From NCBI GenBank assembly GCA_022361135.1, contig JAKSBM010000761.1, positions 1 to 10,169 on the forward strand: 10,169 bases of DNA. The letters run 5' to 3'. Under the pieces are notes generated by a model, which searched no databases, was not told the origin of the DNA, and saw nothing but the letters and a program-made list of their open reading frames with translations. How positions within the stretch are numbered: position 1 is the stretch's first letter; the number at the start of each line of letters is the position of its first letter. Positions 1,919 to 10,164 of this stretch are shown one piece after another. Both the position numbers and the translations under genes were made by a program. This stretch comes from Desulfobacterales bacterium. Lineage in GTDB: Bacteria > Desulfobacterota > Desulfobacteria > Desulfobacterales > Desulfobacteraceae.

Positions 1919-2641
1919 ATGACAGAAGACGAGAAGCATCTGGTTCGGACCATCGCGACCCAGGTCTATTACAGATATTGCCACGGCTCAAATTTCATTT
2001 CCATGAGTCGGGAGGGGGCGTATCACCATGGCATTGTGGGCTTTCTCACGGCCAAGAAAGCCTATCGGAAAGAGACCGGTGTTCCCTTTGAAAAATGGGC
2101 GGCCATCAAGATCAGGGGAGCCATCATTGATGAGTTGCGGAAACGGGGCATGATCCGGCTTCCCCAGGAAAAGCAACGGTTGATCCGGGAATACACCCAT
2201 GCCAAAACCTTCCTCCTCCAGCGGGGGGAGTCGGCCTCGGTGGCAGACATTGCCGAATTCCTGGAATGGAGCCCCAAGCAGGTCATGGATGTGGAATTTG
2301 CCTTTGTTTCCATCGTCTACATGGGGGATAACCCGGCCCTGGAACCGGCCGATGACCAGGATGCCGAGCATTGGGTGAACTCCCGGCAATTGGCGGCAAC
2401 GATGCAGAAGTGCCTGGACGGCATTGAAAACCCAAGGGAAAAATTCATCTTTGTCCACAGGGTTTGGAATGAGCATCTGGGCAAGGCCTCAGCCGCCGGG
2501 GCCAAACTGAAGCGGGTGACCTTGAAAACACTGGGGGATCAGTTTGGATGCAGTGTGGAGAAAATCCGGCAGCATGAGTTGGCTGCCAAGCGGCAAATGC
2601 GGGAGTGTTTGGAAAAAAACGACATTCAAGTGAGAGGATAG
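1919..2641 (+). CDS. RNA polymerase sigma factor, sigma28/SigB-like (group 3)
   Basis: A 240-residue alternative sigma factor that directs RNA polymerase to a promoter subset. Region 2 spans ~8-80: the helix GAYHHGIVGFLTAKKAYR, then VPFEKWAAIKIRGAIIDELRKRG, the hallmark of the FliA/SigB group (compare FETYA..RIRGAMLDELR). Region 3 spans ~84-130, with VADIAEFLEWSPKQV. Region 4 spans ~175-233 and holds the helix-turn-helix VTLKTLGDQFGCSVEKIRQHE (~200-220). Having region 3 and lacking region 1.1 sets it apart from ECF and housekeeping factors. No flagellar gene is nearby, so a FliA role is unlikely. It is the first gene of an operon: the ZAS-like gene begins 2 nt after its stop, the usual place for a cognate anti-sigma factor. 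Region 2.1/2.2 (residues ~15-35) is somewhat divergent. The family call is secure; the regulon is unknown. Confidence 0.92.
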   Translation: MTEDEKHLVRTIATQVYYRYCHGSNFISMSREGAYHHGIVGFLTAKKAYRKETGVPFEKWAAIKIRGAIIDELRKRGMIRLPQEKQRLIREYTHAKTFLLQRGESASVADIAEFLEWSPKQVMDVEFAFVSIVYMGDNPALEPADDQDAEHWVNSRQLAATMQKCLDGIENPREKFIFVHRVWNEHLGKASAAGAKLKRVTLKTLGDQFGCSVEKIRQHELAAKRQMRECLEKNDIQVRG

Positions 2642-2643
2642 GT

Positions 2644-3216
2644 ATGAATGGGATCAGTTTAGATGAGGCCGTGGGGATTTGGTTTGGGAGCCGTCCCCCG
2701 GAGGGAGACCATCTGGCCCTGGAGACCCTGGACCAACTTTCCCTTACGAATGGCATGGCCACGGCTCCGGAGGCGGCCTTGAACCATCTGGCCACCTGCA
2801 GGGTCTGCATGGAAAAATGGGAGTGTTTCACCCTGGCCCGGCAAAAAAAGCAAGGGATTGAGCCGGAAGGGGAAATCATGGTGTATGGGCAATTGAAGGC
2901 TGCGGCCTCGGAATCCGAGGGCGCTGAAAAACTCAAGAGCCATTGCGGCCGGTTTGTCCTGGGCATCAGCAGGGAGGAGGGGGATGCACCCTTACATGGA
3001 TTGGTTTCGGGCCTGATTACCCTGGATGTGGTTTCGGATCGTCCCTTGGTGGAGGGGCGCCGGGTCCGGGGCCGGGATGCCGCCGGATCCATTTTCATGG
3101 ACAGTCGTATTCGGCGGGGCAAGGCCGCCGTGGAAACCCAGGGGCTGGATCAATATGATTTTTCCACCTGGACCCTGGCCATTTCAACCCCATGCGACAC
3201 GGGGGACAATGGCTAG
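2644..3216 (+). CDS. Putative soluble ZAS-like anti-sigma factor
   Basis: A 190-residue protein with no signal peptide or membrane segment. ATG 2644 is chosen because it lies 2 nt after the sigma stop, preceded by GAGAGGATAGG; the frame is open further upstream, but that part lies inside the sigma gene. The notable motif is H48-L-A-T-C52-R-V-C55 (codons 2785-2808) within a helical N-terminal ~60 residues. HX3CX2C is the zinc-binding signature of ZAS anti-sigma factors such as RsrA and ChrR. The remainder (~90-185) looks beta-rich, is not recognised, and could be a sensor or protease-recognition domain. Position, spacing and motif together suggest it holds the upstream sigma factor inactive. 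ZAS proteins usually partner ECF sigmas, so pairing with a sigma28-type factor would be unusual. It could instead be a sigma-linked regulator or activator. It shares an 8-nt overlap with the protease gene. Confidence 0.6.
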   Translation: MNGISLDEAVGIWFGSRPPEGDHLALETLDQLSLTNGMATAPEAALNHLATCRVCMEKWECFTLARQKKQGIEPEGEIMVYGQLKAAASESEGAEKLKSHCGRFVLGISREEGDAPLHGLVSGLITLDVVSDRPLVEGRRVRGRDAAGSIFMDSRIRRGKAAVETQGLDQYDFSTWTLAISTPCDTGDNG

Positions 3217-4192
3217 AACCTGGATTCTTTTTGAGGATGGAAGCCGGTATGCCATAGCCTGTAGAATCCGGCCCAAGATTCCGGATACCCATGGCCATGT
3301 CTCCGCCTACATTGTCCCCACCCCCGACTCCGACGGTTTTGTCACCGCGGCGGAGCTGGGGGTGAATGCGGCCCATGACTGGTGCTGGAAGAATAAATTG
3401 ATTTCAGAACCGGTGTCGGCGATTTTTGCCCTGGAGGGGCTGGACGGTCAGAATTCCTCCTTTTCCGGCCAGAGCGGGGGGATGTGCTTTGCCATTGCCT
3501 TTGCCCGCCAATACCTCAACAGCGGGGGGCCGGACATTGCAGCCACCGGGGTCATCGACGGCCTGGACCGGGTGACCGCCGTGGGGGGGATTCGGGGGAA
3601 AATCCAGGCCGCCCGGGGGGTGTTGAAGGCGGGGGATTATTTTTTCTATCCCCGGGCCAACCACAGCGAATTGGGCCCCCTGGACCTGGAACCGTTGCGG
3701 CAGAGGCAGATCCATTGCCACGCCGTTGACAGCATCACCGAGCTCATGTCCCTCTTGTTTGCCTCGGATTCCCGCATGGTTCCCCCTGGGCAGCCTGTGA
3801 ATGGCTGCTTGCCTGAACCCGGGGGAATGGCCGCCATGGGCAGACGGCTTTCCTCCATGCTTATTCCCCTGGCCATGGGAGTGGTGTTTGCCCTGGCCTT
3901 TACCCTCTGGCCGGATAGAATTACCGAGGAAGGAGGGGGGATACATCATTCCGGCCCGGGTGCATTTCATTCCCACCCCCCGCCCGCCCCGCCCCAACTT
4001 CCCCAAAAAACTGCCCTTGCAGGGCCCCTTCCTTCCATCCAAATGGAAATCCCCCCCCCAGTGCCACAGCTTTCCCACCCCATTCCAAAATCCCAACCCC
4101 GGTCCCGGGTAACCCGTCTTCCCCGGGTTCCCACCGGGAATGATTCCCGGAAAAATATTCTCCTGACCCTTGCGGATAAAGGCTTTGATTGA
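3209..4192 (+). CDS. Membrane-tethered Lon-family (S16) serine protease, ATPase-less
   Basis: A 327-residue protein. Residues ~25-185 form a Lon-type S16 peptidase domain with a Ser-Lys dyad: nucleophile S89 in GQSGG (compare GPSAG in Lon) and K131 in VGGIRGKIQAA (compare IGGLKEKLLAA). The 42-residue Ser-Lys spacing is close to 43 in E. coli Lon. No AAA+ ATPase domain and no N-terminal signal are present. One hydrophobic helix (~214-234, after R212 R213) would place the protease in the cytoplasm and the C-terminus outside. The ~90-residue tail (~243-327) is rich in Pro, with PPP stretches, and could span the periplasm. Start ATG 3209 overlaps the ZAS-like gene stop (ATGGCTAG), implying translational coupling; an upstream in-frame ATG at 3026 lies inside that gene and is unlikely. 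A role in cutting the anti-sigma or sigma partner is inferred from operon position. Family call is strong; substrate unknown. Confidence 0.85.
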   Translation: MARTWILFEDGSRYAIACRIRPKIPDTHGHVSAYIVPTPDSDGFVTAAELGVNAAHDWCWKNKLISEPVSAIFALEGLDGQNSSFSGQSGGMCFAIAFARQYLNSGGPDIAATGVIDGLDRVTAVGGIRGKIQAARGVLKAGDYFFYPRANHSELGPLDLEPLRQRQIHCHAVDSITELMSLLFASDSRMVPPGQPVNGCLPEPGGMAAMGRRLSSMLIPLAMGVVFALAFTLWPDRITEEGGGIHHSGPGAFHSHPPPAPPQLPQKTALAGPLPSIQMEIPPPVPQLSHPIPKSQPRSRVTRLPRVPTGNDSRKNILLTLADKGFD

Positions 4193-4199
4193 TTCCTTT

Positions 4200-4228
4200 T
4201 TCCAACGATTGCCTTTGCCGTTCCAACG
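4200..4228 (+). repeat. Direct repeat TTCCAACG, 21-bp period
   Basis: TTCCAACG occurs at 4200-4207 and 4221-4228 in the 224-nt gap after the protease gene. The period of 21 bp equals two helical turns, as expected for two protein-binding half-sites on one DNA face. It lies ~190 nt upstream of the lipoprotein gene. It may be an operator or chance; a degenerate CATGG-containing relative of the 17-bp element follows near 4247-4261. Confidence 0.3.
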
Positions 4229-4348
4229 TGTTAATTTTCCTTAATCCGAATATTTCATGGCAATTTGTTCACCGGTTGGCGGGGTGAGGGAGGGGTAAAT
4301 CCATCCATTCCATCTTTGTTCCTTGCAGCCCCCCAAAAAATCATTTTG

Positions 4349-4375
4349 TGAAATGTCCGGGCCAAATGCCGTCTA
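4349..4375 (+). promoter_or_regulatory. Weak sigma28-like promoter candidate upstream of the DUF4384 lipoprotein
   Basis: TGAA (4349-4352), exactly 15 nt, then GCCGTCTA (4368-4375) resembles the sigma28 pattern TAAA-N15-GCCGATAA: three of four and five of eight positions match, including the GCCG core. It is of interest only because this locus encodes a sigma28-type factor. The start would be ~35 nt before ATG 4417. A TATGAT (4374-4379) overlapping it lacks a well-spaced -35 box. Confidence 0.25.
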
Positions 4376-4416
4376 TGATTTAAGTCGTTCCATCGATGAT
4401 ACCACGGGAGGCAAGG

Positions 4417-6528
4417 ATGAAGGGATTTGGAAGGCAGATCTGCTCGGGAATTCTCCTCATGGGGCTCTGCCTGGGCTGTGCCCTGCCTCCCCCGCCCCTT
4501 AAGGTGTCTTCCCATATTCCCATATCCCAGGTCTTTTCCGCCATGGTGGCCCAGATGCGCAGCCAATATGATTTCCGGGGGCGGTCGATCCAGGTGTCCG
4601 ACCCGGGCTTTTTCCAGCAGCAAACCTTGATGCATCTACCGTTTTCTTCCTTTTTAAATGCCGTTACCTCGGCCGAGTTGACCCGGCAGGGCGGGCGGGT
4701 GAGCCTCCAGGAAATGGGGGAGAATCCCCTGCGGCTGGTGGGCAGTTACCTGGTGGGGGAGGAGGCTGTTCTGGTCACCCTGCGGTTGCGACAAATGGGG
4801 CTGTCCTCGGGGCAGGATCTGGCCGTGGTTTCCCGGCAGCTCCCCCGGGAAATGCTGGCCCCTGCATGGTTTGTCCCCGGCCTGTCCGGGGTGGCCCATG
4901 CCCTGGTCCGGAAGTTGGAATTGGTCTACCAGGGTGGGGAATCCATTGCCGTCCAGGTCCGTCCCTTTTCTTCCGATGATCCCAGCCATGCCCAATGGGC
5001 CCTGGGGGAGGCCATGGAAAAATACCTCCGGGATGCCCTGGCAGCCTCATCCATTTTTAAACCCGGGAATGGGGGCCCTGTTTCCTCCCACGCCCTTCTA
5101 AGGGGGGCCTTTGTCCCATGGGGATCGGGCTGGATGTTCCATGCCGCCCTGGTCCGGACCGAAGATCAAGTTCCCCTGGCCGGTGCCGAGGTGTGGGCGC
5201 CGGATTCCACGGTCCCCGAGCAGATGCGGCAACCGGGTGTGCGTTCCCTGGAGGGCCTATGTCGGAAGCTGGTCCTGGGGCTTGAAATGGCCCCGGGGCA
5301 ATTCCAGGGGGAGAATTCCGTGGTTTTTATTCCTCCCTTGGCCTTCCATGACAGGGACCAATCCGTGGTGGGACCCTTGAACGGGGAACTGATTTCCCGT
5401 TTGAAGAAGGAAATTCCAATTGTTTTGGGACTATCCGTGGCAGAAACCTTCCCCCCCAAGGGGGCTTGGTTGCTGCGGGGAAGCTATGGACGGGAAGGGG
5501 AAAATTTACGGGTCTCCATGGAAATGGGAACACAGGTAGCCGGCCGGGGTGCACCGCTTTGGTTTCGTTCCCAGGCCTACCTGGGTAAGACCTTTTACCA
5601 ACCGGATTGGTTTCAAGCGGATCTGGACGGCCATTTGGACTACGCCATGGTTGGGCTGGAAAGGGCGGTGGAAAGAAATTCAGCCTTGTCCCCTCCCGTT
5701 TCGGTGGCGTTTCCAGGGGGGGAGGTCGATGGTTCCATGGCCCGGTATTTATATGGTCATTTTCAGGATCGTTTAGGGAGATCCCATGTGTTTACCCTGG
5801 ATTTCCCGGGGCCCAATCCCGGGGGGCCGACTCCGGTTCTGTTGGAAGATGGAGCTGCTGGGGTTGGATTTAACAGGGACTTCCAGGGGGACGTCTATTC
5901 CCTTCGGGTCCAACATCGGCAACGGGGACGTACCGGGGTGGACGTTGAAATCGGCCTGGTGGACGGCAATGGGCAGGTTCAGGCATCCAGCCGGACCACG
6001 GCCCCCTTGTCCCCCACGGAGATTGCCCTTTTAGGGCGGGAACAGGGAGGGATGTCGCCTTCCCCATCGCCGGGGGCGAATTTGGTTCTTTCCACCCAGA
6101 AGGGACGGGGCAATCCGTCCTTTTTCCAGGGGGAAGGAATCACTTTCTTTGTCCGATCCGACCAGGATCTTTTTCTCCAGCTCTTTAACCGGGATGCCAC
6201 CGGCAATGTGTATCGCATTTACCCCAACGGCCATGACAATGGAAGTCAGGGCATGGTGGCCCACCAGACCCTGGCCCTGCCCCAGGGGATCTTTGACCAG
6301 GGGTTTCAGTTCAAGGTGGGGGCTCCCCTGGGGGAAGAGCAGGTGGTTGCATTTGCCTCGGACGTTCCCCTCCCGGACATCCCCGGGGCAGATATCCTGG
6401 AATCCGGCATGCTGCGGGTGGGAAGAAACCTGGACGAGATTCAGGCCTGGTTTGAACATTATACCCGGGCCCGGGGCATCTCCCTGGCCGTGGACACCAT
6501 TTCCTTGACCACCCGGGAGCGGCCTTGA
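4417..6528 (+). CDS. Large DUF4384 lipoprotein with four repeated N-terminal modules
   Basis: 703 residues from ATG 4417, chosen over ATG 4396 because GGGAGG sits 5 nt upstream and the protein then begins with a signal peptide. K2 and R6 precede a hydrophobic stretch ending LCLGC, with Cys21 the likely lipidated residue; the lipobox is not ideal. The mature part repeats a module of a beta strand, a helix of G..L...L type, and a pair of strands around L-L-R-G-S/A-Y/F. Repeat landmarks are at ~105-145, 226-265, 352-395 and 494-535, with leading strands at ~179, ~301 and ~429. This resembles CsgG/FlgO-like envelope domains. Residues ~575-655 form a DUF4384 domain (FVRSDQDLFLQLFNRD, VYRIYPNG, GEEQVVAFAS), a family commonly found with caspase-like peptidases. 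It likely acts at the periplasm or outer membrane, perhaps as partner or ligand-binding arm of the downstream caspase. DUF4384 is secure; the repeat assignment is tentative. Confidence 0.82.
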   Translation: MKGFGRQICSGILLMGLCLGCALPPPPLKVSSHIPISQVFSAMVAQMRSQYDFRGRSIQVSDPGFFQQQTLMHLPFSSFLNAVTSAELTRQGGRVSLQEMGENPLRLVGSYLVGEEAVLVTLRLRQMGLSSGQDLAVVSRQLPREMLAPAWFVPGLSGVAHALVRKLELVYQGGESIAVQVRPFSSDDPSHAQWALGEAMEKYLRDALAASSIFKPGNGGPVSSHALLRGAFVPWGSGWMFHAALVRTEDQVPLAGAEVWAPDSTVPEQMRQPGVRSLEGLCRKLVLGLEMAPGQFQGENSVVFIPPLAFHDRDQSVVGPLNGELISRLKKEIPIVLGLSVAETFPPKGAWLLRGSYGREGENLRVSMEMGTQVAGRGAPLWFRSQAYLGKTFYQPDWFQADLDGHLDYAMVGLERAVERNSALSPPVSVAFPGGEVDGSMARYLYGHFQDRLGRSHVFTLDFPGPNPGGPTPVLLEDGAAGVGFNRDFQGDVYSLRVQHRQRGRTGVDVEIGLVDGNGQVQASSRTTAPLSPTEIALLGREQGGMSPSPSPGANLVLSTQKGRGNPSFFQGEGITFFVRSDQDLFLQLFNRDATGNVYRIYPNGHDNGSQGMVAHQTLALPQGIFDQGFQFKVGAPLGEEQVVAFASDVPLPDIPGADILESGMLRVGRNLDEIQAWFEHYTRARGISLAVDTISLTTRERP

Positions 6529-6549
6529 GTTCAATGGCCGTCTTTCCTT
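6520..6549 (+). terminator. Probable intrinsic terminator after the DUF4384 gene
   Basis: CGGCC (6520-6524) pairs with GGCCG (6536-6540), and the stem continues inward as TTG/CAA past one bulged T, closing on a short loop. A U-rich tract, TCTTTCCTT (6541-6549), follows directly. The stem overlaps the stop codon, which is common for compact terminators. It suggests the caspase gene has its own promoter in the gap that follows. Confidence 0.45.
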
Positions 6550-6663
6550 CCCGGGCAGGGCGCGTTTTCCACGGGCTTCAATCCCCTGGAATTAAAATAT
6601 TTCAAACAAAGCTTGATTCCTGATTGAATTCTTATAACATGTGCTAAACGCATCTGAAATCCG

Positions 6664-6684
6664 GGGATGAAATCAGCTCATCCC
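6664..6684 (+). repeat. 7-bp inverted repeat in the caspase upstream region
   Basis: GGGATGA (6664-6670) and TCATCCC (6678-6684) form a perfect stem with a 7-nt loop. No T-run follows, so it is not a terminator; it could be an operator or an RNA stem in the leader. Confidence 0.35.
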
Positions 6685-6820
6685 GTGTTGAGTTTCCTTG
6701 GTAAATTTAAAATTTCATCCAGTTCATTTTTCTTGTTTCCATTTGAATTCGGCAGTCTTCTCCAATTGAATCCGATAGTTCTGTTTTTCACGAAACATCC
6801 AGTACCGTCCTTCGGATATG

Positions 6821-6837
6821 GGGATATTTCCATGGCC
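6821..6837 (+). repeat. 17-bp shared element, copy B
   Basis: An exact second copy of GGGATATTTCCATGGCC (first at 1612-1628), ending 32 nt before the caspase ATG. Here the left arm is ATGGGGA rather than CCATGGGA, so the RNA hairpin is weaker (ATGGGG/TTTCCAT with G·U pairs) though still possible. Its closeness to the ribosome site would allow control of translation if transcribed. Confidence 0.5.
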
Positions 6838-6869
6838 GGGGCGGAATCCGATCAAAGGGGAAAAAGGTG

Positions 6870-8387
6870 ATGGGGAATCGTTGTGCAACGTGGGTGTTGG
6901 TATTGGTTCTGGCAGGGGCCTCGGTCCTTTGGGCTTCCCAGCCCCGGGTGGCCCTTGTGGTGGGAAATGCCCGGTATGGAAGCGGTGCATTGGCCAATCC
7001 GGAAAATGATGCCCGGGACATGGGTCAAGCACTGGAGGCCATTGGCTTTGATGTGATCCTGGGCCTGGACGTGGACCGGAAGGGGCTGCTGGAGATCGTG
7101 AGGGAATTCGGCCGAAGGCTTTCCCGGGTCCAGGGGGGCATCGGCCTCTTTTATTATGCCGGCCACGGGGTGCAGATCAATGGGGTCAATTACCTGGTAC
7201 CCGTGAATATCGACGCCCGGAATGCCTTGGATGCAGAATATGAGTCGGTGAAGGCCGCCCGGGTTCTGGGGACCATGGAAGCCGGGGGGACGGATTTGAA
7301 TGTGGTGGTGCTGGATGCCTGCCGGGACAATCCCTTTGTTCCGCGGTCCCGATCCCTTTCCCAGGGGCTGGGGGGGATGGCCGCCCCCGAGGGGACCCTC
7401 ATGGCCTATGCCACCAAGGCGGGCTTTGCCGCCGAGGATGGCTCAAACCAGCGGAACAGCCCCTATACAGAGGCCCTGCTTCGCCACATTCGAACCCCGG
7501 GGTTGGAGATCCGGGAGATGTTCAACCGGGTGGGCCTGGATGTGAAGGCCGGGACGGGTAATGCCCAAATTCCCTGGATTTCCAATGATCCCTTTCCGCC
7601 CTATTATTTGGCGGGTTCGTCCGGGGGGCCGGTTGATCCCCGGTCCGCTCCCGGGAAAGGGGCCGCCCTTGCTCCCTTTTCCAGCCATTCCAAGCGGATG
7701 TGGACGGAGCCCTTCACGGGCATGGAAATGGTCTGGGTGGACGGGGGCTGTTTTGACATGGGATCCACGGCCGGGGGGGAAGATGAAAGGCCGGTTCACC
7801 GGGTCTGCCTGGATGGGTTCTGGATGGGAAAGACCGAGGTGACCCAGGGGCAGTGGAATCGAATCATGGGCAGTTCACCCGCCCGGTTTCGGCAGGGGGA
7901 CGCCTATCCCGTGGTCCGGGTGAACTGGCACGATGTCCAAACCTATGTCCAGGAGTTGAACCGGATTTCCGGTCAATCATTTGTTCTCCCTTCCGAGGCA
8001 CAATGGGAATATGCCGCCCGGAGCCGGGGGCAGGCCCAGACCTTCAGCGGGGGGGAGGAGGTTGATCGTTTGGCCTGGTACGACGGCAATGCCGGCGGCT
8101 ATATCCACCCCGTGGCCACCAAGGCCCCCAATGGCCTCGGCCTCCATGACATGAGCGGGAATGTATGGGAATGGTGCGCCGATGTCTATGACAGCCAGGC
8201 CTATTCCCTCCATGGGGGGAAGAATCCCCTCCATATTTCCCCGTGGAATTCCCGGGTGATCCGGGGGGGCGGCTGGGACTGTGATCCTCCATGGGTGACG
8301 GCCACGGTCCGGGATGGCTTTAAGCCGGTGTACCAGGGAAATTACCTGGGGTTTCGCCTCTGCCTGCCCCGGTTGAATGGAATGTAA
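6870..8387 (+). CDS. Secreted caspase-like (C14) peptidase fused to an FGE-sulfatase-like domain
   Basis: 505 residues from ATG 6870; GTG 6867 is a one-codon longer alternative. A Sec signal peptide (hydrophobic core ~8-19, cleavage near WAS-QP at ~23) predicts periplasmic or surface location. Residues ~26-250 are a caspase/metacaspase-like C14 domain. It opens with VALVVGNARYGSGALANPENDA and carries catalytic His99 in FYYAGHG and Cys151 in VLDACRDNP, followed by LMAYATKAG and NSPYTEALL. A Gly/Pro-rich linker follows. Residues ~280-500 are an FGE-sulfatase (C-type-lectin-like) domain: MEMVWVDGGCFDMGS, GKTEVTQGQW, PVVRVNWHDV, LPSEAQWEYAAR, NGLGLHDMSGNVWEW and LGFRLCLP. Of the two active-site Cys of true formylglycine-generating enzymes, only the first position is kept (C471 in GGGWDC); the second is V476. 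The domain is therefore more likely a binding module than an oxidase. C14-FGE fusions are known in bacteria. Position next to a DUF4384 lipoprotein fits the family pattern. Confidence 0.93.
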   Translation: MGNRCATWVLVLVLAGASVLWASQPRVALVVGNARYGSGALANPENDARDMGQALEAIGFDVILGLDVDRKGLLEIVREFGRRLSRVQGGIGLFYYAGHGVQINGVNYLVPVNIDARNALDAEYESVKAARVLGTMEAGGTDLNVVVLDACRDNPFVPRSRSLSQGLGGMAAPEGTLMAYATKAGFAAEDGSNQRNSPYTEALLRHIRTPGLEIREMFNRVGLDVKAGTGNAQIPWISNDPFPPYYLAGSSGGPVDPRSAPGKGAALAPFSSHSKRMWTEPFTGMEMVWVDGGCFDMGSTAGGEDERPVHRVCLDGFWMGKTEVTQGQWNRIMGSSPARFRQGDAYPVVRVNWHDVQTYVQELNRISGQSFVLPSEAQWEYAARSRGQAQTFSGGEEVDRLAWYDGNAGGYIHPVATKAPNGLGLHDMSGNVWEWCADVYDSQAYSLHGGKNPLHISPWNSRVIRGGGWDCDPPWVTATVRDGFKPVYQGNYLGFRLCLPRLNGM

Positions 8388-8480: not shown

Positions 8481-8527
8481 CCCCATTATTTTTTCCCTTC
8501 TTTTTTTGAAAAAAAATATTTTCCTTC
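8481..8527 (+). promoter_or_regulatory. A/T-tract block before the small lipoprotein gene
   Basis: Phased runs of T then A (TTATTTTTT, CTTTTTTTG, AAAAAAAATATTTT) lie 45-90 nt upstream of ATG 8570 in otherwise G/C-rich DNA. They contain TTGAAA (8506-8511) as a possible -35, but no good -10 at 16-18 nt. Such tracts typically bend DNA or act as UP elements, so a promoter for 8570 is plausible though not resolved. Confidence 0.3.
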
Positions 8528-8569
8528 GATCCTTAACTACAGGAAAGAATCCCTTTACCGGAGGAAAAT

Positions 8570-9109
8570 ATGAAAAAATTCCCTTTAAAATTTGGTTTGC
8601 TTCTCTCCTGTCTCTTCCTGGTGGTGGCCGGGCAGGGCTGCGTGCAGAAACATGCTTCCATCCCCCAAACCGGCCGACTGACCTGTGACCAGGCCGCAGC
8701 GGCAGACTCCGTGGCCCCCGAAGCCCTGGCCCACATTTTGGCCGAAGCCCGGCAAAATCCAGACATGGAAGGCTGCTGGACCCCTTTGATGAAACAGGCA
8801 TTGAACCGGGGCTGGACCCTTCCCATGGCCGATCTCACCCTGGCTATCCACCGGTTCAATCGCAGTGATTCCCCGGCCCTTTTTTCCGCAGCGGTTCACC
8901 AATACCTGGTGGGAATCGTAAACGGTAAGGCCGGATACGGTGCCCGGGAGAGACGGCTTTTGGCCGCCTACCTTCGGTTTGTCATTGAACATGCCCCGTC
9001 CAAACAGGATATCCGTCTGAAGCAGGCCCGACTCCTTTGCCTCCGCCTGGATTCGGAATTGTACCAGCGCTTTTTCGGGGTGAATTTCCTGGGGGCGGTG
9101 AATCCATGA
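8570..9109 (+). CDS. Small helical lipoprotein, unrecognised
   Basis: 179 residues from ATG 8570, with a strong ribosome site (CCGGAGGAAAAT). The N-terminus is a lipoprotein-like signal: MKK, a hydrophobic stretch ~9-20, then Cys24 after GQG; the lipobox is not ideal, and Cys14 (LLSC) is a less likely alternative. The mature part is predicted mostly helical from its Leu/Ala/Arg pattern and has further Cys at 39, 69 and 157. I do not recognise the family. Its stop overlaps a possible start of the next gene (ATGA at 9106-9109), so the two are almost surely co-translated. It could anchor or partner the secreted coiled-coil protein. Confidence 0.75.
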   Translation: MKKFPLKFGLLLSCLFLVVAGQGCVQKHASIPQTGRLTCDQAAAADSVAPEALAHILAEARQNPDMEGCWTPLMKQALNRGWTLPMADLTLAIHRFNRSDSPALFSAAVHQYLVGIVNGKAGYGARERRLLAAYLRFVIEHAPSKQDIRLKQARLLCLRLDSELYQRFFGVNFLGAVNP

Positions 9110-9126
9110 AAACAAGGAGAGAATAT

Positions 9127-10164
9127 ATGAATGGATTAAAGCAATGGATGGGGGTGGCCTGGGTCACTTTATTGATATGGGTTGCCCCGGTTTTGGCATC
9201 CCCCCTGGATACGGGGGACCGGGCCGTTGAAATCGCCAAGCGGGCCAGGGACCGAATTGAAAAAAGCGGGAGCCAGTTGAAATCCTCCTCCCACCAGATG
9301 TTTTCCCAGTTCGCGGAAAAAACCGGAGAACTCCAGGCCCTTATTGATACGCGGAAACGGTTGGAACAAGCCGGGATGTTGGATCCGGCCGATCCCATGG
9401 GCCAGGCCAGAAAGGTTCACATCAATGCCCGGATAATCCGGGAGGTGGGGGCTTTGAAACTCATCTGCGATGAAAATCTGGATCTGGTCCTGAATTCATT
9501 GGAGGGGTTTGACCGGGCCATTGCCGCCTCCGTAGCCGATACCCAGGCCACCCGCTCCATTAATTCCAATTATGAGTTGATCCTGAGGGAGTACAGGGAA
9601 AAGGAGCGGGAGCGGTTTGAAGGGGCGGCCACCCAGGCCGAAGCGCTTTTGGAGGAAATCCAGGGGGCGGATGCACCGGAGTTGAAGCGGCGGCTCACGG
9701 CCAAGTATGCCCGGATCCGGCAGCGGTTGGATCGCATTGAACAGCGGCGGATCCTCTACGAAGCCCGGCTCAAGGTGGCCGGGGTGAACCAGAAGATTTC
9801 CGGTATGATCCGGGAGAAAATCCGCCAGCAGGACATCCCCACCAAGTTTCGGACCATGCTCACCTCCCTCTATACCAATTTTGCCAAGGTGGTACCCGTG
9901 GCTGCAATCGGGGGGACAGATCTGGAAGCCGCCCTGGGGAAACTGGGGTTTTCCCAGATGTCCGAGCTCTCCACGACCTTGGATGTGATGACCGACGTGA
10001 ATGGGAAATTGTCCCAGGTCCTCAATGCCATGCTCTCCGATGTAACCCAGGGACTTGACGGGGTGAAAATTGTGGATGGGGAAGCGTTGAGCGACGGCGC
10101 CTTCAGCGCAGAAAAGGAAATGGAATACCTGTCCAAGCGGCGGGCCCAGTGGACCAAGGGGTAG
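9127..10164 (+). CDS. Secreted coiled-coil protein, unrecognised
   Basis: 345 residues from ATG 9127, chosen because AAGGAGAG lies 6 nt upstream. ATG 9106, which overlaps the preceding stop as ATGA, would add MKTRREY and is a serious alternative. A Sec signal peptide (hydrophobic ~8-23, cleavage near VLA-SP at ~24) predicts a periplasmic protein. The mature chain is almost wholly helical. Residues ~150-235 are rich in Arg/Glu with heptad-like spacing and suggest a coiled coil; a second helical part (~250-310) contains VPVAAIGGTDLEAALGKLGF. No enzyme motif, repeat or membrane segment after the signal is visible, and I do not recognise the family. Together with the upstream lipoprotein it resembles a periplasmic scaffold or tether pair. 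A ribosome-site motif right after its stop indicates the operon continues. Confidence 0.75.
   Translation: MNGLKQWMGVAWVTLLIWVAPVLASPLDTGDRAVEIAKRARDRIEKSGSQLKSSSHQMFSQFAEKTGELQALIDTRKRLEQAGMLDPADPMGQARKVHINARIIREVGALKLICDENLDLVLNSLEGFDRAIAASVADTQATRSINSNYELILREYREKERERFEGAATQAEALLEEIQGADAPELKRRLTAKYARIRQRLDRIEQRRILYEARLKVAGVNQKISGMIREKIRQQDIPTKFRTMLTSLYTNFAKVVPVAAIGGTDLEAALGKLGFSQMSELSTTLDVMTDVNGKLSQVLNAMLSDVTQGLDGVKIVDGEALSDGAFSAEKEMEYLSKRRAQWTKG

Follow-up and report, generated by a model that had tools for sequence, protein, structure and literature searches.

A conserved sigma, zinc-protein and membrane Lon-type protease module that appears to switch on its own operon and cell-envelope genes

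The DNA studied here, which we call the window, is a contig of 10,169 nucleotides (nt) from a Desulfobacterales bacterium (GenBank JAKSBM010000761.1, forward strand). It encodes, in order and on the same strand, a sigma factor, a putative zinc-type anti-sigma, a membrane Lon-like protease, a DUF4384 lipoprotein and a secreted caspase-FGE protein. The first three genes appear to form a conserved switch, present in a group of environmental bacteria, that turns on its own operon together with cell-envelope genes, sometimes with a caspase beside it. The module is recognized by its gene order, by its zinc and catalytic residues, by the Lon fold and membrane helix of the protease, by a promoter motif tied to the genomes that carry it and, in distant relatives, by fusion of DUF4384 to the protease.

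The three-gene module and its relatives

The sigma gene (1919–2641) is separated by a 2-nt gap from the gene for an HX3CX2C protein (2644–3216), which in turn overlaps the gene for the S16-like protease (3209–4192) by 8 nt. An earlier note on this DNA had described these genes, their spacing and strand, and the DUF4384 and caspase-FGE genes that follow on the same strand, and our analysis bears this out.

Single-sequence searches with the Lon protein returned one near-identical relative, as did those with the anti-sigma; the Lon search of genome and viral contigs gave no locus, and a search with the sigma protein opened the family instead. Twenty genomes found via isocitrate-dehydrogenase loci (the window isocitrate dehydrogenase and its counterpart in a Desulfobacteraceae metagenome-assembled genome share 74% identity) had weak Lon matches only (14/20 at E up to 1, best 0.003), and in one of these, L081, the frames read as part of a longer Lon-like protein. 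The sigma was found in 6 of 86 genomes of the nearest family (E 1e-6). Of 389 genomes of the order, 9 had a Lon-profile match with E no higher than 3e-45, and the match ranked after them had E 4e-13; the weaker matches, among those listed and not checked singly, lay mostly in frames of ~800 residues. In a sample of the phylum, 8 of 395 genomes matched at E 1e-16, one in common with the order set. One homologue carries the label Desulfobacula phenolica. These counts are lower bounds because at most six candidates were scored per genome.

The window and 16 genomes gave a set of 17 loci. Using hidden Markov models (HMMs) built from these loci, we found sigma, anti-sigma and Lon genes to be consecutive in 15/17; in the other two, L190 and L194, the contig ends before the sigma, and the L192 sigma is itself cut. 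A gene order that recurs in 15 of 17 loci, with the other two cut by contig ends, is more than chance. The module is conserved without a SAVED domain and without a sigma of the extracytoplasmic function (ECF) type, as the earlier note had proposed, and it has a promoter motif of its own.

Pfam sigma-70 regions 2, 3 and 4 were all matched in the sigma protein, with region 2 alone passing the cut-off, and the sigma profile aligns with RpoS and FliA over regions 2–4; the sigma is therefore not ECF-like. It falls far under the FliA/WhiG cut-off (NCBIfam TIGR02479; 54.5 bits versus 189.6).

The product of the second gene carries H23-X24-H48-X3-C52-X2-C55, and the full four-ligand motif H-X24-H-X3-C-X2-C is present in 15/17 loci (the window and 14 others). 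H/C-X24/25-H-X3-C-X2-C is the motif given for zinc-binding anti-sigma (ZAS) factors (PMC6432622). The zinc protein, with a helical N-terminus and a C-terminal beta domain, had no Pfam or NCBIfam match, and the 12 anti-sigmas examined out of 17 showed no membrane segment (highest 19-residue hydropathy 0.48–1.15). It is a putative anti-sigma, which would bind the sigma and be cleaved by Lon.

The protease, of 327 residues, consists in the predicted structure of a Lon proteolytic domain (residues 1–185), one membrane helix (214–236) and a low-confidence tail ending GFD. All of the first 18 ten-residue blocks average a predicted local distance difference test score (pLDDT) of ≥70, with 13 above 90. 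The Pfam Lon_C match is weak (E 0.012, below cut-off); Lon identity is backed by fold (best Foldseek E 9.6e-10 to Lon structures) and by profile (E 1.1e-9). Ser89 and Lys131 are spaced 42 residues apart, and this catalytic Ser-Lys pair is kept in 17/17 loci. With its length taken up by Lon domain, helix and tail, the window protease lacks the AAA+ domain of LonA, LonB and LonC; a SAVED domain was absent from Pfam scans of it and eight relatives, and its match to the SepM-family S16 proteases (NCBIfam) is far below cut-off.

Among the 43 proteins in which the helix was found by scan, 36 have an excess of lysine and arginine on its N-terminal side (P0029, a fragment, was left out of the charge scoring). 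Because positive charges favour this side, the Lon domain of most members is expected to be cytoplasmic, with the tail outside. Of 44 sequences, a set that includes near-duplicates (for example, P0003 and L109) and two fragments (P0018 and P0029), 34 have a tail ending in GF[DE]. Within the window tail there is a run of nine C at 4051–4059, about where a near-identical public protein, P0001, leaves frame and loses the GFD end; this could reflect either sequencing error or phase variation.

A promoter motif tied to module-bearing genomes

Upstream sequences first drew attention to the motif GAAAA-N11-CTTCGAT, of which the window has two exact copies on the forward strand (0.01 expected; 0 of 200 shuffles had two). 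One lies at 1876–1898, 43 nt before the sigma gene, and the other at 8508–8530, 62 nt before a gene for a lipoprotein-like protein, LP179. On a matrix made from 29 sites outside the window these score 35.7 and 40.3, respectively, the second being the best in the window; no other window site exceeds 10.0, and 100 random sequences, for which only positions starting with GAA were scored, reach 22.0 at most. The spacing is fixed: GAAA-N13-TTCGAT occurs 14 times in nine loci, compared with 0–2 times at each other spacing from 4 to 25, a count that leaves out L112, a near-duplicate of L111. Of the 14 loci with the sigma start on the contig, 11 have the motif ahead of the sigma, and an exact motif stands before LP179 in 7/8 (the window, L109, L110, L144, L189, L191 and L193; not L107).

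The feature reaches past 8387, the end that the earlier note had given it, to two genes (8570–10164) that have this promoter motif in common with the sigma gene. LP179 (8570–9109), identified with an HMM from the loci, is followed by P345 (9127–10164), a secreted protein whose start at 9127 is set by a ribosome-binding site.

We compared motif positions in module-bearing genomes, comprising a first nine and five further ones, with those in 21 family genomes in which no sigma was found. There were 25 exact matches in the first nine and 23 in the 21 without sigma; the five further genomes gave 12 matches to the motif with a trailing A, an extension made after three of their loci had been seen (in one of them, G536, the sigma itself was not seen, at a contig end). 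By one fixed rule, 12/25, 1/23 and 12/12 sites, respectively, were promoter-positioned (pooled p 2e-6, which rests on two motif patterns). With the trailing A applied to all, the counts were 8/12 in the first nine, 0/8 without sigma and 12/12 in the five further, or 20/24 in 14 module-bearing genomes versus 0/8 in the 21 (p 5e-5). The five genomes outside the motif derivation, taken alone, gave 12/12 (p 8e-6). The link between the sigma and this promoter is well supported.

The 12 sites of the five further genomes precede LP179 (all five genomes), the sigma (one), a secreted protein of ~210 residues (three), a gene in L197 (815–1471) and in L199 that we take to be ElbB-like (two), and a small frame (one), which follows the L205 motif and reads, with some uncertainty, as secreted. 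Among the sites of the first nine, L185 was counted negative; it lies inside an overlong frame, and the next gene encodes an envelope-like protein. In G037 (L183), a motif lies between a caspase gene and that for a 384-residue secreted protein, clustered with OmpA and a MotA/ExbB-like gene. Copies away from the locus were also seen at L187 2208 and L188 2367, where the genes that follow encode a glycine-zipper lipoprotein and a small secreted protein.

Neighbouring envelope genes

LP179 and P345 were each found near the module in 8/17 loci (the L110-side P345 coming from a separate search), and a caspase in 4/17 (the window, L109, L110 and L145). The best-conserved neighbour is the LP179–P345 envelope operon, not the caspase, and the earlier proposal that the pathway may control an envelope caspase module is not supported in that form. 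P345 was matched in 3 of the 86 family genomes, each of them one of the six with the sigma (p 2e-4); the other three sigma-bearing family genomes had no P345 match.

In the window, the DUF4384 lipoprotein-like gene (4417–6528; its start is better set at 4417, which a ribosome-binding site precedes) encodes a secreted protein with a signal-like N-terminus and a C-terminal DUF4384 (Pfam, 2e-16). The next gene (6867–8387) encodes a secreted caspase (Peptidase_C14, 2e-34) that contains both the His and the Cys motif and is joined to an FGE-sulfatase domain (6e-42). Relatives of the DUF4384 lipoprotein lie near the module in 7/17 loci; those in L111 and L112 resemble part of the protein only, the former having no DUF4384 match and the latter being outside that scan. 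Several loci are short contigs, and absences of neighbours there therefore mean little.

DUF4384 lies within 10 kb of Lon in four of nine genomes searched (16 matches in ~50 Mb; 0.06 expected) and a caspase in three (18 matches; 0.07 expected); these expectations treat matches as independent, whereas some are clustered. The earlier note had named a conserved three-gene operon without C14 or DUF4384 genes nearby as grounds for doubt, and this is partly what we see, because no caspase or DUF4384-lipoprotein gene was found by HMM in L189, L191 and L193 (7.4, 9.0 and 16.0 kb read). The tie to DUF4384 is physical, since in the distant Lon proteins of L194 and L195 the tail contains DUF4384 above the Pfam cut-off (E 3e-8 and 1e-7), which links the window lipoprotein to the Lon protein; the proposed caspase link is reduced to an accessory one, seen in 4/17 loci, several of them on short contigs.

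Some relatives have further envelope genes. A lytic transglycosylase is encoded in L144, L193 and L111 (SLT, E 1e-13 to 1e-27). The MotA/ExbB-like protein is a weak assignment: MotA_ExbB was below cut-off in 3/3 aligned proteins, a fourth candidate (L111:10321-10968) had no MotA_ExbB match, and a PDB search with the ExbB-like alignment found nothing. P0028 and, in L111, the gene that follows Lon had been read as SPOR-like; this was dropped, as neither had a Pfam match. Two further clusters were noted. L195 3206–8718 is a distant version of the module, with the Lon-DUF4384 fusion, a second protein without the zinc motif and a TPR protein two genes on; G076:C1:2952114-2985790, away from the sigma locus, holds all but one of its genome's seven caspase matches and likewise all but one of the seven DUF4384 matches.

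Proposed mechanism and comparison with known systems

We consider it rather probable that the module is a dedicated envelope-to-gene switch, in which the Lon domain, activated by a signal from the envelope, releases the sigma by cutting the anti-sigma. At rest, the cytoplasmic zinc-type anti-sigma would hold the RpoS/FliA-type sigma, and the protease would be anchored by its one membrane helix with the Lon domain in the cytoplasm and the C-terminal tail outside. The signal may be felt by the tail, by a partner binding the conserved GF[DE] end, or by DUF4384 where this is fused, and would activate the Lon domain, possibly by clustering. Once the anti-sigma was cut, the freed sigma would transcribe its own operon and the envelope operon from GAAAA-N11-CTTCGAT promoters. 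The envelope operon begins with LP179 and P345, followed in some relatives by the weakly MotA/ExbB-like protein and the lytic transglycosylase; the DUF4384 lipoproteins and caspases would be lineage-specific additions. More tentatively, the protease may represent a new kind of transmembrane receptor-protease, whose envelope-facing tail (GF[DE] end or DUF4384) gates an ATPase-free cytoplasmic Lon domain, and which, by cutting a soluble zinc anti-sigma, turns on an envelope apparatus that includes a lytic transglycosylase, a proton-channel-like protein and, in certain lineages, a caspase of the envelope.

Several observations weigh against such a switch. The second protein of L195 lacks the zinc motif and that of L194 is cut; the anti-sigma structure model is modest (mean pLDDT 69.5, with a helical N-terminus), and neither fold nor profile searches gave the protein, C-terminal beta domain included, a significant match in the PDB. 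The charge bias of the helix in L189, L191, L192 and L193 does not favour the predicted topology. No exact motif precedes the sigma in L145, L195 or L109, the last of which has a near match, and a matrix scan of the window shows no separate motif for the DUF4384 and caspase genes. When the trailing A is dropped, promoter-positioned sites make up only 12 of the 25 in the first nine genomes, two of these 12 (L153 and L219) are doubtful, and the 25 include those from which the motif was derived.

The zinc protein could itself be the sensor of the signal, by redox sensing of the ChrR/RsrA type, with Lon merely clearing used anti-sigma or sigma or having another substrate. The zinc site is of the HHCC kind, which is sensitive to oxidation (PMC6432622), and the host is related to the Desulfobacteraceae by its isocitrate dehydrogenase; but wherever the length of the locus allows a judgement Lon accompanies the sigma and anti-sigma, its membrane anchor and its conserved or DUF4384 tail point to signalling by Lon, and L195 keeps Lon and not the zinc motif, which together make this account unlikely. 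We regard as less probable still that Lon mainly processes envelope or secreted proteins of the neighbourhood, the sigma pair being merely co-transcribed. The membrane anchor, the envelope neighbours and the charge bias in L189, L191, L192 and L193, which does not favour an inside Lon domain, would suit that role, whereas the Lon domain lies N-terminal to the membrane helix, the strongest hydrophobic segment of the window protein does not come ahead of that helix, charges put the Lon domain inside in 36/43 and the gene overlaps that of the anti-sigma. It is very improbable that the module is a solitary relative of the type III CRISPR CalpL-CalpT-CalpS defence system, which has the same three roles of Lon protease, anti-sigma and sigma (PMC11417357), given that there is no SAVED domain, the sigma is not ECF, PADLOC gave no match for seven window proteins (no defence sign), no short-spaced direct repeats were found in six loci (the relatives' neighbours were not scanned for cas genes) and the Lon profile, with 51 PDB sequences matched up to E 10, picked up no chain named CalpL. 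For the earlier suggestion that the locus may be CRISPR-independent, the check covered only the window's own proteins, by PADLOC, and repeat arrays in six loci.

Should the envelope-to-gene switch be true, Lon-driven sigma release would extend from CRISPR signalling to the cell envelope, DUF4384 would gain a testable role as an envelope-side sensor or partner, and some bacterial caspases would sit beside a defined regulon. The fixed promoter motif would then let that regulon be read in uncultured bacteria.

The proposed route from envelope signal to sigma via anti-sigma proteolysis would resemble regulated proteolysis of the RseA/DegS/RseP type. In RseA-type systems the anti-sigma itself spans the membrane; in the present module it is the protease that has the membrane segment, and the anti-sigma lacks one. 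SepM-family S16 proteases are likewise AAA+-less and membrane-bound; they act outside the membrane, unlike the module Lon domain, which is predicted inside. With the ZAS factors ChrR, RslA and RsrA the anti-sigma shares the H-X24-H-X3-C-X2-C motif (PMC6432622); unlike ChrR, with its cupin-like domain, it has a C-terminal beta domain without a significant match, and its partner sigma is not ECF. In Csx29-Csx30-CASP-sigma a protease also cuts the inhibitor of a sigma, as Lon would here, but that protease is a CHAT protease driven by Cas7-11 and RNA and the sigma is ECF-like (PMC10028731). Among the matches listed, the literature searched, in which subscription papers were mostly not included, gave no description of the present system, which is not proof of absence. 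In the roles of its parts the module resembles CalpL-CalpT-CalpS, in which a Lon-type domain, an anti-sigma and a sigma are encoded together and sigma is released by proteolysis, as proposed here; there, cA4 activates CalpL by way of SAVED, and the sigma, CalpS, is of the ECF type (PMC11417357). The module differs in that its protease lacks SAVED and has a membrane anchor, its anti-sigma is of the zinc type, its sigma is RpoS/FliA-like and its apparent targets are envelope genes. By analogy, it would work like CalpL-CalpT-CalpS without CRISPR, while its lack of SAVED and of an ECF sigma sets it apart as not a member of that system.

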